This document shows positions 19,830 through 22,024 of a stretch of 42,247 nucleotides of DNA, in pieces; position 1 is the stretch's first letter, and the number at the start of each line of letters is the position of its first letter. Made by a program: the position numbers and the translations under genes. The stretch spans positions 1 through 42,247 of the forward strand of contig JAFUAA010000056.1 of the NCBI GenBank assembly GCA_017460915.1. Direction: 5' to 3'. Origin of the DNA: Bacteroidales bacterium. GTDB taxonomy: Bacteria; Bacteroidota; Bacteroidia; Bacteroidales; F082. The notes below the pieces were generated by a model that was not told the DNA's origin, searched no databases, and saw only the letters and a list, made by a program, of their open reading frames with translations.

Positions 19830-19870
19830 GGGATAGCCCTGTCGGGAGACACGGCTATCCCGCTTTTTTT
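19830..19870 (+). terminator. Intrinsic terminator of the surface-protein locus
   Basis: The stem GGGATAGCC (19830-19838) pairs with 19853-19861, followed by GC and seven T residues. The same hairpin would also be the original downstream end of kdsC on the other strand. Confidence 0.88.
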
Positions 19871-19874
19871 GCCC

Positions 19875-19907
19875 TCACCAGGCATACGCCTCCGCCGTCA
19901 TCCATTT
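19875..19907 (-). repeat. Distal copy of the kdsC 3' end (direct repeat)
   Basis: It is identical to 21451-21483 at 32 of 33 bases. Read on the minus strand it encodes KWMTAEAYAW and a TGA stop. The single change is synonymous (Ala GCG to GCC). Homology stops abruptly at both ends. It is followed by the terminator that probably once served kdsC. Confidence 0.9.
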
Positions 19908-19946
19908 TATTATGTTATCAATACATTATGTTGTAGTTCCATAATA

Positions 19947-21329
19947 TTAACTTGCCGTGAAGTCATCGATAACGTCCTGGGGCAAAAACACGTGCTCGGT
20001 AATGCCATCCGTGGCTAACCGCTTCAAGAACAGCGCATAAACAATTTCCCTGTCTTTTGCGAAGGGTAGGGATTGCGCTTTGGTTTCAAGTTCGTGGAAA
20101 AGCTTTCCAGCTTGTTCGCCCTCGGTCCATTTGCATTCGCCGATGAGGATTTTCTTTTTGTCTAACGACTCGGCAACGATGTCGAGTTCGATACTTACCC
20201 GTTCTTTGTTTATGACGACGGTTCCCCACCATCGCGAAGCAACGCCCCATGTTGCGTCGAGGAGTTGGTTGCCACTGACGGCGCTGCGGCAAAGACGCTC
20301 CCAATGGGCGGCCACAAAATCGGAGAAGGTGTCGCTGATGATTTGCAAAACCGCATCTTTCCTTCGCAGGTTGATGAGCGATCGGTTGGGTACCACATAT
20401 CGGTAGTAGGTGCGCATAAACGGGTCGCAAAGCTGATAGTAACTGCGTTTGCTGTTTCGCGGGCTTTCGCCGAAAGGCGTTTCGCGTTCAATATAGCCGA
20501 GATTGACGAGCTTGGCAAGAGGGCCGCTGAGGTCGGTCGCGTTCTTTTGCATTCTTCCTGCTATCTCTGAGAGCCGATTGACGCCATTGCCTATGATGGA
20601 TAGTAGTGTTGAGGATTGGGCGCTGTGTTGGAAATCGTCAAGAAACAGCTTTGATGGTTCGTCATATAAGGTGCCGTTGGGGTCGATGATGTTGTAGGCA
20701 ACGGCTTCCATCAGCGAAGGCTCGTTCTCACGTATTTCCCAATAACGCGGCACGCCACCCCAAACCGCCGATTCCTCGATGGTCTGGACTGCGTTGGTGT
20801 GGAGAATCCATTGCAAATACCTGATAGGAATAGGCTCAAGCTTCATAATGACATTGCCCCGCCCATAAAGGGGTGAGGTGGCATCGAGCACTAAACCTTG
20901 CATCATCTGTTGCGACGAGCCGCAGATGATGAGGTCAAAAGGCAATTGCTTGCTGTCGATATGTCGTTGCAGAATGGAGGGCAGACTCGGACATGATTTC
21001 ACTAAATAAGGGAACTCGTCCAGGCAGAGCGTGAAACGCTTGGCAGTGCGATGCGACAAGGAGATGATAAGGGTTTCCCAATCGGGATAGGCGACTTTGT
21101 CGAAATCGGGAATCTTCGCACTGATGGTTCTCGCCAACAAAGCGAGTTGCTGGCTTTGCTCGGCTTGATCAGCCATGAAATAGAGGTCGTCTTCAGTCAA
21201 CACATGTCGGATGAGGGTGGACTTCCCCAAACGTCGTCGCCCGTATAGAATGATGAATTGTGGTTGCTTTTTGGCGCTTAATACACGTTGTAGCCTCTTG
21301 ATTTCGTTTTCTCTATCAACAAATTCCAT
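19947..21329 (-). CDS. AAA/STAND-like ATPase with C-terminal PD-(D/E)XK nuclease domain (archaeal-type ATPase)
   Basis: A 460-residue protein. Walker A is GRRRLGKST at residues 30-38, Walker B is LCLDEFPYL with Asp104-Glu105, and a sensor-like IICGSSQQMM follows. A winged-helix region (about 230-310) contains SEIAGRMQKNATDLSGPLAKLVNLG. The C-terminal DUF234-like domain has the nuclease core ELD (Asp383) and GECKW (Glu398, Lys400). This family (ATPase_2 plus DUF234) is greatly expanded in archaea and Bacteroidota, and has been suspected of being selfish or mobile; its biochemical role is unknown. The gene lies alone between two copies of the kdsC 3' end and carries its own -7 promoter element at 21352-21359. 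An intact nuclease core and ATPase argue that it is active. Confidence 0.88.
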   Translation of the reverse strand: MEFVDRENEIKRLQRVLSAKKQPQFIILYGRRRLGKSTLIRHVLTEDDLYFMADQAEQSQQLALLARTISAKIPDFDKVAYPDWETLIISLSHRTAKRFTLCLDEFPYLVKSCPSLPSILQRHIDSKQLPFDLIICGSSQQMMQGLVLDATSPLYGRGNVIMKLEPIPIRYLQWILHTNAVQTIEESAVWGGVPRYWEIRENEPSLMEAVAYNIIDPNGTLYDEPSKLFLDDFQHSAQSSTLLSIIGNGVNRLSEIAGRMQKNATDLSGPLAKLVNLGYIERETPFGESPRNSKRSYYQLCDPFMRTYYRYVVPNRSLINLRRKDAVLQIISDTFSDFVAAHWERLCRSAVSGNQLLDATWGVASRWWGTVVINKERVSIELDIVAESLDKKKILIGECKWTEGEQAGKLFHELETKAQSLPFAKDREIVYALFLKRLATDGITEHVFLPQDVIDDFTAS

Positions 21330-21351
21330 CTTTTGTGATTATTATGTGGCG

Positions 21352-21359
21352 CAAAAATA
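21352..21359 (-). promoter_or_regulatory. -7 promoter element of the ATPase gene
   Basis: On the minus strand this reads TATTTTTG followed by C, a perfect Bacteroidota -7 element 22 bp before the ATG at 21329. It lies inside the inserted segment, so the element brings its own promoter. Confidence 0.6.
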
Positions 21360-21450
21360 ATGTTTTTATTCCATAATATGTATTTTTGCTTGAAAAAAAC
21401 GCAAAAAAGCCATTTTCTTGAGCGCTTTTCTTCGTGTTTGGAGGCCGCCG

Positions 21451-21483
21451 TCACCACGCATACGCCTCCGCCGTCATCCATTT
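21451..21483 (-). repeat. Proximal copy of the direct repeat (3' end of kdsC)
   Basis: These are the last ten codons and stop of kdsC. They are repeated 1576 bp away at 19875-19907 with one synonymous change. Confidence 0.9.
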
Positions 21484-21972
21484 GCCTTGTACCTTCAAGA
21501 CGCGCTCGATGACCTCGCGCACGGCGCCCTTGCCGCCGTTTTTGCTGCTGACGAAGTTGCTGATGGCCAATACCTCAGGTACGGCATCGGCAGGGCAGGC
21601 GGGCAACCCCACGCACTGCATCACGCGCAAGTCGGGGATGTCGTCGCCCATGAAAATGATCTCCTCGGGCTTCAAGCCTTTGGCTTCCATATACTCATTG
21701 AGTTTCAACACTTTGTCGGGGATGCCCGTGAATACGTCGGTCACGCCCAGACTGTTCATCCTGACGATGGTAGAGGGGCATACCGCGCCCGAAATCACCG
21801 CCACATTGTAGCCTAATTTCGAGGCCAGCTGCAAGGCATAGCCGTCTTTCACGTTGGTGGCGCGCAGAGGATGGCCGTCGTAATCGCAAAAGACCGTGCC
21901 GTCGGTCATGACGCCGTCAAAGTCGAAGATAAAAGTCGTGATAGGGGTGAAAATATTGTCGTTTTCGCTCAT
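21451..21972 (-). CDS. kdsC: KdsC-type HAD phosphatase (3-deoxy-manno-octulosonate 8-phosphate phosphatase)
   Basis: A 173-residue protein from ATG 21972. An upstream start at 22017 would run through the -7 promoter element and is rejected. HAD motif I is IFDFDGVMTDG (Asp17, Asp19), motif II is VISG, and motif III/IV has a conserved Lys region and MGDDIPDLRVMQ. It is a capless, tetrameric C0-type HAD phosphatase that removes phosphate from KDO-8-phosphate in the lipopolysaccharide pathway. Some homologues act on N-acylneuraminate-9-phosphate instead. Its last ten codons are repeated behind the ATPase gene downstream. Divergent from rsfS. Confidence 0.88.
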   Translation of the reverse strand: MSENDNIFTPITTFIFDFDGVMTDGTVFCDYDGHPLRATNVKDGYALQLASKLGYNVAVISGAVCPSTIVRMNSLGVTDVFTGIPDKVLKLNEYMEAKGLKPEEIIFMGDDIPDLRVMQCVGLPACPADAVPEVLAISNFVSSKNGGKGAVREVIERVLKVQGKWMTAEAYAW

Positions 21973-21994
21973 GGTAAGGTCGTTTTTCGTGCCC

Positions 21995-22002
21995 CAAAAG
22001 TA
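21995..22002 (-). promoter_or_regulatory. -7 promoter element of kdsC
   Basis: The minus strand reads TACTTTTG, a match to TAnnTTTG, 23 bp before the ATG at 21972. Confidence 0.55.
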
Positions 22003-22024
22003 CGTATTTTTTGCCAAATGCCGC

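Follow-up and report, generated by a model that had tools for sequence, protein, structure and literature searches.

A gene for an ATPase with a predicted nuclease-like C-terminal domain stands between two near-identical copies of the end of kdsC in the window, the 42,247-nucleotide stretch of Bacteroidales DNA that we analysed, and very probably came to lie there by an insertion that restored the gene end. Taken as a whole, the structure can be read as an integrase-less single-gene cassette with a defence candidate, which restores the kdsC end, carries its cargo as a passenger and is moved by recombination between gene tails; we give this composite reading an even chance of being right. The evidence comes from the window itself, from filled and empty sites at a second gene, PCMT, and from duplicated ends of further genes around members of the same ATPase family and around other cargos.

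The duplicated end of kdsC

The two direct repeats are identical at 32 of 33 bases, and both encode, on the minus strand, KWMTAEAYAW followed by a stop, which are the last ten codons and stop of kdsC; the sole mismatch, GCG against GCC, is synonymous for Ala. The first-pass annotation had described the repeats in these terms, and repeat search and translation bear it out. Its further statement that similarity ends abruptly outside the 33 bp was slightly too strong, because an extended pair of 37 bp (19871–19907/21447–21483) retains 95% identity, with three of the four flanking bases also matching. The proximal copy forms the in-frame 3′ end of kdsC, and the gene matches the NCBIfam KdsC subfamily model TIGR01670 over its cut-off (E 2.6e-39). 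Behind the distal copy, where the annotation had placed a terminator, we found an inverted repeat with arms at 19830–19843 and 19848–19861. A single intact gene lies between the copies; inspection of the open reading frames of at least 80 aa in this interval gave no recombinase-like protein, in line with the absence of an integrase or transposase noted earlier, and the window's contig holds no match to PF00589. The best direct repeat across the ATPase gene scores 31, against a maximum of 20 in a null of 300 tries in which upstream and downstream flanks from different relatives' loci were cross-paired.

Table 1. Features of the kdsC-associated element (positions in the window; a dot marks a feature without strand)
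Feature	Position	Strand	Basis
kdsC, target gene with intact proximal 3′ end	21451..22017	-	ORF list; NCBIfam KdsC over cut-off
Proximal repeat copy, last ten codons and stop of kdsC	21451..21483	-	Repeat search
Distal copy of the kdsC tail, 32/33 identical; putative former resident end, by analogy with PCMT	19875..19907	-	Repeat search and PCMT empty-site analogy
Cargo gene, ATPase_2 and DUF234, 460 aa, PADLOC PDC-S27 (E 9.7e-38)	19947..21329	-	ORF, Pfam, alignment, PADLOC, model and fold match
Upstream ATTATG/CATAAT half-site array beside the start codon, kept in the family, weak hairpin	21330..21385	-	Repeat search, relatives
Downstream array with the same ATTATG/CATAAT half-sites, directly adjoining the distal kdsC tail, weak hairpin	19905..19947	-	Repeat search, relatives
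Inverted repeat resembling a terminator, beyond the distal kdsC tail	19830..19861	.	Inverted-repeat search

The DNA downstream of kdsC was read in 64 other genomes of the genus, three of them with less than 1.1 kb. A second kdsC tail is present in two, bracketing a YhcG/DUF1016 nuclease gene in G061 and a gene for a 275-aa protein in G057. Genes also stand behind kdsC with no tail copy seen: an AAA_14-DUF4143 gene in G075, two ORFs in G088, and a gene for 270–275 aa in G091 and G086. At none of the loci read is kdsC followed by the downstream neighbour seen in the window, a gene for 82 aa, and the empty kdsC site proper was accordingly not found in these 64 genomes; the comparison with empty sites that the first-pass annotation had proposed thus gave clean examples at PCMT and none with this neighbour at kdsC.

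Filled and empty sites at other genes

Thirty PCMT loci were fetched, of which one was too short and 29 were examined. Fourteen are empty: PCMT is followed by a short terminator and, no more than 50 bp downstream of the gene, by a HerA_C gene (Pfam) in convergent orientation; two (G014 and G074) carry an ATPase, two (G054 and G066) a Fic gene and a 47–48-bp tail copy, and in the remaining 11 the neighbours are different ones or lie further off. The ATPase of G074 and G014, 48–49% identical, abuts the 3′ end of PCMT, and a second copy of the last ~30–44 bp lies beyond it; in G080 the same ATPase is found at PCMT with a shorter and degraded tail remnant. Longer loci for the two ATPase-filled genomes (L087 and L085) have, in both cases, the PCMT tail copy, the terminator and the HerA_C gene on the far side. 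Read from these sequences, the insertion fell inside the last ~30–44 bp of PCMT, the end of which was restored. The occurrence of both empty and filled PCMT sites is what identifies the distal PCMT copy as the former resident end and the insertion as one that restored the gene; together with the structure at kdsC, it supports the earlier claim that the insertion struck the 3′ end of a gene and restored it.

The signature recurs elsewhere, as the first-pass annotation had suggested should be checked. In relatives within the genus, ATPases of the family have on both sides the duplicated 3′ end of radA, PCMT, lpxH, a histidine kinase or an A2M-like gene; the names A2M-like, histidine kinase, glycosyltransferase, response regulator, ALDH, pbpC, ruvC and maf are those that we take to fit the sequences. 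The histidine-kinase end is repeated in three genomes and the lpxH end in G020 (lpxH by NCBIfam, below the curated cut-off). In G007, an ATPase that lacks a match to DUF234 lies in the opposite orientation between the A2M-like gene end and its 50-bp copy, and in G088 a 63-bp copy of the A2M-like end follows ~0.7 kb without a clear gene. Outside the genus, duplicated 5′ ends bracket ATPases as well: a glycosyltransferase start of 102 bp (L110, copies at −293 upstream and +27 downstream) and a response-regulator start of 70 bp (L098, −185 and +69). Gene-end repeats range in length from ~23 to 102 bp. The sequence right behind the stop of the A2M-like gene (L228–L250) differs between most genomes read, which marks a hot spot of insertion or rearrangement, and G007 carries more than one copy of this gene on one contig.

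To quantify the association, the last 60 bp of each neighbour whose 3′ end faces a tested gene were sought on the far side of that gene. At a score of at least 15, this facing-gene-end test is positive in 9 of 64 ATPase tests vs 1 of 392 tests of other genes; the nine positives are eight ATPases at four target genes, with the window and PCMT outside that set. Among the other genes, the one positive is the Abi_2 gene that follows valS and has a 57-bp tail copy. Over all loci, 13 of 153 ATPase tests are positive vs 2 of 905 with permuted tails. Among the 13, at least two (L255 and own_L003) do not represent clean gene ends, one (L156) lies 23 bases away from the stop, and L268 is counted twice. 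The same test on 5′ ends gives 7/117 vs 2/695, and apart from L098 and L141 most of the seven belong to arrays or dispersed repeats. Both 3′-end counts include insertions that are related to one another. As ordinary genes served as controls, the enrichment for ATPases may partly reflect their accessory status. The valS gene of G020 (L299:12620-15673) itself has a match to DUF559 (endonuclease-like) at residues 232–338, inside the synthetase (E 6e-18, below the curated cut-off).

Behind radA, identified by NCBIfam RadA, the insertions stack. The ancestral-looking neighbour is presumably ruvC; many genomes carry other genes there, and at least one radA tail copy was found in 10 of the 24 loci read further, one of which has only 232 bp downstream. 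In G065 (L267), radA is followed by an ATPase_2 gene, a tail, a solo palindromic array, a tail, an AAA_14-DUF4143 ATPase, a tail, an array and a further tail, and the locus continues with a gene for 321 aa accompanied by another tail and array; in G089 (L314), an intact array-ATPase-array unit occupies the place where others have a solo array. Further tail-bounded cargos at radA include TonB_C and Imm11 proteins. Solo palindromic arrays of the type that flanks intact ATPase units occur at L267:10120-12150, L268, L266 and L359, as if recombination between arrays had removed the gene, like a solo LTR.

Cargos without an ATPase are thus also tail-bounded: the YhcG nuclease at kdsC, Fic at PCMT, Abi_2 at valS, and Imm11 and TonB_C at radA. 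In PADLOC, ATPase_2-DUF234 corresponds to PDC-S27, AAA_14-DUF4143 to PDC-S01, YhcG to PDC-S02, Fic to PDC-S04/SoFic, and the Abi_2 protein behind valS to PD-T4-5/AbiD. Five of eight cargo types therefore match PADLOC defence families, a raw count that leaves the 275-aa protein of G057 aside; the four radA tail-side proteins (TonB_C, two Imm11 and the 321-aa protein) gave no PADLOC match.

The cargo ATPase and its flanking arrays

The window protein matches Pfam ATPase_2 with 57.6 bits (cut-off 33.2) and DUF234 with 59.4 bits (cut-off 22.5). Two PADLOC models of PDC-S27 match it nearly full-length, the second with E 2.7e-27, and the PDC-S27 alignment spans residues 2–442 of 460 and model positions 3–453 of 474; NCBIfam yielded no match to the protein. 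Across 11 aligned relatives, the GRRRLGKST, LDEFPY-like and ExD...ExK residues are largely invariant, the last in all 11. The best of five AlphaFold models has a mean pLDDT of 83, the other four lying at 64–68, and its best fold match is SSO1545 (2fna; E 4.4e-11, TM 0.42 by query), followed by Orc1/Cdc6 proteins; SSO1545 is also the best sequence match of the ATPase family profile (E 3.6e-6). This likeness in fold supports a DNA-binding AAA+ protein, in which the fold matches suggest that a winged-helix part is probably present. The window protein differs from SSO1545 and Orc1/Cdc6 by the addition of the C-terminal DUF234 domain, predicted to be PD-(D/E)XK nuclease-like. According to the accessible part of PMC5760070, the mycobacterial regulator IniR, the AAA+ part of which is 15% identical to SSO1545, binds a promoter.

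We regard the window protein as a candidate single-gene anti-phage defence protein, with a presumed defence function. In the accessible parts of two descriptions (PMC12988326, PMC13356809), PDCs are mostly unvalidated single-gene candidates, many of them outside known defence islands, and PDC-S27 and PDC-S01 occur often in genomes of archaea and of the rumen; neither of these parts mentions insertion at the 3′ ends of genes or tail duplication, both seen here for a PDC-S27 match. ATPase relatives occur on plasmids (73 records, including haloarchaea and Bacteroides), in four phage records and on one viral contig, so vehicles exist. On the Bacteroides uniformis plasmid NZ_CP072237.1 (L370), a relative lies directly before a recombinase family gene; the plasmid also has a conjugative-transfer protein and is typed as non-mobilizable.

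Repeats of several kinds surround the family, and many of its genes have repeats peculiar to their subfamily on either flank. Among 20 ATPases tested in the window's genome, which has 24 ATPase_2 matches, six (L002, L005, L006, L007, L013 and L015) are flanked by direct repeats scoring at least 18; five of these have locus-specific intergenic repeats near start and stop codons, and only L006, the window locus, has a gene-end repeat. A wider set comprised 60 regions from 11 genus genomes and 11 further loci, chosen for a DUF234 match, in which direct repeats scoring at least 22 bracket 44 of 73 ATPase genes vs 11 of 485 other genes; here one ATPase is counted twice (L249 and L313), and L290/L291/L293 and L256/L257 are probably orthologous insertions and hence not independent. 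About five of the 44 bracketed ATPases have gene tails (L249/L313, L256, L267 and L268), and the rest have arrays; the 11 other genes include several with dispersed repeats, one in the radA tail array and one Abi_2 case. Palindromes are common in the flanks: stems of at least 12 on both sides were found for 19/69 ATPases vs 4/529 other genes. Dispersed intergenic repeats around L104 and L115 were not counted as gene-end duplications. When ATPase pairs of at least 95% amino acid identity and with long enough flanks were compared (74 pairs), 21 have 600 bp or more in common on each side and thus the same context, and 17 have less than 300 bp in common on each side (medians: 106 bp upstream, 79 bp downstream). 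Near-identical copies in different places have little in common outside the gene and its repeats. For the L303 copy, which carries an ALDH tail, transposition was set aside, as this may be a deletion or rearrangement.

The subfamily of the window has ATTATG/CATAAT half-sites in place of strong hairpins. At least two half-sites lie upstream in 12/13 genus loci and 71/80 wider loci, and downstream in 7/13 and 7/80, respectively. Since the downstream array is mostly missing outside the genus, an operator fits better than a pair of element ends, and the arrays are most likely the protein's own operator or binding sites, primarily an operator. Hairpin ends were rejected for the window element, the arrays of which fold no better than shuffled sequences (z −0.87 and −0.55); corresponding values are −8.5 and −9.9 for L314 and −6.4 and −2.0 for L299.

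Possible routes of insertion and relation to known elements

For the window element, the following route is proposed. Entry would have taken place within the final ~33 bp of kdsC, the cassette bringing its own version of these bases and thereby restoring the gene, and the former kdsC end with its terminator would now stand behind the cassette. Homologous recombination on the short gene tail would be the most likely route: the two flanking tails could loop out a circle of cargo and one tail, and this circle could re-enter at the same gene end, in the same or another cell. The first event may have been homology-assisted illegitimate recombination of incoming DNA. Genes without an ATPase share the tail duplication, which indicates that it belongs to how the cassette enters and not to the ATPase protein alone; the cargo is rather likely a passenger and not the engine. 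Whether homology, as opposed to an unseen recombinase acting in trans, drives the movement appears to us evenly balanced.

Three comparisons bear on the joining event: i) no PF00589 gene stands at the tail-bounded loci of 15 genomes, each with one to eight PF00589 matches, Xer-like ones presumably included; ii) the tails of kdsC, radA, PCMT, lpxH, valS and the A2M-like gene have no common core by eye; and iii) 7 of 11 tail copies are nearer to another genome's gene end, two are nearer to their own (G057 and L326) and two tie (the window, 1 vs 1, and L334), a comparison biased towards the other genomes, as the best of 30–69 others is set against one own value, and from which radA L321 was left out. 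The PF00589 search, confined to that family, covered the window's genome, G007, G020, G055, G058, G059, G060, G061, G065, G074 and G089 among its 15, and left out G014, G054, G057, G063, G066, G018 and G093, where tail copies or filled sites occur. These sequence comparisons mildly favour the view that incoming or circular DNA recombined with the locus and so joined two gene-end alleles, rather than that a single enzyme duplicated its target site. As a simple account, fresh duplication of a target by an enzyme was set aside, because the outer limits of the repeats mostly fall at gene ends. Several findings run counter to the composite reading. Among them, ATPases show tail duplication far more often than the comparison set does, a set of all genes and not of accessory genes, and insertions behind kdsC without a tail copy exist (G075, G088, G091 and G086); the missing kdsC empty site with the window's downstream neighbour and the four radA tail-side proteins that match nothing in PADLOC also count against it.

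The excess of bracketing repeats at ATPase genes is also what a one-gene transposon would leave, if the ATPase bound its own arrays through the winged helix and its PD-(D/E)XK domain cut gene ends so that long repeats resulted. The near-identical pairs that share little flanking sequence on both sides, the solo arrays and array-ATPase-array units among the radA tails, the fold closest to SSO1545 and Orc1/Cdc6, and the invariant ExD...ExK residues agree with such an element, but the same tail signature on cargos without any ATPase makes the ATPase an improbable engine. Moreover, the downstream array is absent from most of the 80 wider loci, and the gene-end repeats vary in length. We consider the transposon unlikely. 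In many genus copies arrays do stand at both ends, and the one protein encoded, ATPase/nuclease-like and without an NCBIfam match, might serve as a transposase or recombinase. The first-pass annotation's phrase, a one-gene mobile element targeting gene ends, stands as far as recurrent insertion with restoration of the gene end is concerned, and is weakened where it makes the ATPase the mover.

The anatomy of integration at gene 3′ ends and the tandem arrays at radA would also suit a relic resembling a CIME, left by a recombinase of the tyrosine or serine type that belonged to an ICE, a phage or an Xer system, used gene 3′ ends as att sites and is now absent or acts in trans; the tails would then be attL and attR, and the arrays products of accretion, which, like CIMEs, is described for ICEs in the accessible part of PMC5704250. 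The recombinase family gene beside an ATPase relative on the Bacteroides plasmid is in keeping with this origin. Against it stand the absence of PF00589 genes from the tail-bounded loci of the 15 genomes, the lack of a core shared by the tails, as judged by eye, which would call for several recombinases, and the content of most cassettes seen, one or two genes, and we hold such a relic to be doubtful. A chance or local duplication of the kdsC end would accord with the rarity of the second kdsC tail (2/64 other genus genomes) and is nonetheless hardly credible: the repeat score far exceeds the null, tail copies recur at other genes and bracket a single gene in G061 and G057 too, and the PCMT empty and filled sites refute this account in practice. 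The two counter-findings named by the first-pass annotation, paired kdsC tails without a gene and ATPase relatives never flanked by duplications, were not encountered in the loci read.

Recombination between gene tails, the reading that we prefer, places the structure close in kind to two known classes. Minimal mobile elements of Neisseria are alternative single genes between conserved genes, with no mobility gene; the likeness lies in these two properties, and gene-end duplication, which to our knowledge is not part of their picture, is a feature of the cassettes described here. CIMEs lack integrase and transfer genes, are flanked by copies of the target gene end and may form tandem arrays, according to the accessible part of PMC5704250. 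The window element is likewise flanked by two target-gene-end copies without an integrase gene inside; the cassettes differ from CIMEs in their many unrelated targets, their single-gene cargos and the absence of a parent element or integrase at the loci searched. What sets the cassettes apart from both classes is that these loci have no integrase, that the target genes are varied, that the cargos are single genes and that insertions stack behind radA. No description of gene-tail cassettes was found in the literature searched on DUF234, DUF4143 and archaeal ATPases.

As a speculative wider picture, conserved housekeeping genes of these Bacteroidales may be docking sites for immunity genes that come singly and can replace one another, in which cassettes bearing the last 25–70 bp of a gene would insert harmlessly, stack as behind radA and pass between species; they would resemble integrons without an integrase, with the gene tail as attachment site and the AAA+/PD-(D/E)XK protein perhaps helping to cut. 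The gene-tail signature marks insertions precisely and can be searched for in any genome, where it may find single-gene immunity candidates without knowledge of their sequence, and it suggests a recombinase-free route between the ends of housekeeping genes. Tail-bounded insertion is also one way to explain the strong multiplication of archaeal-type ATPases. As a separate observation, two ATPase genes in the window's genome (L008 and L009; G000:C33:24052-24672 and G000:C47:19341-19961) have identical flanks on two contigs, either by recent segmental duplication or as an assembly effect.
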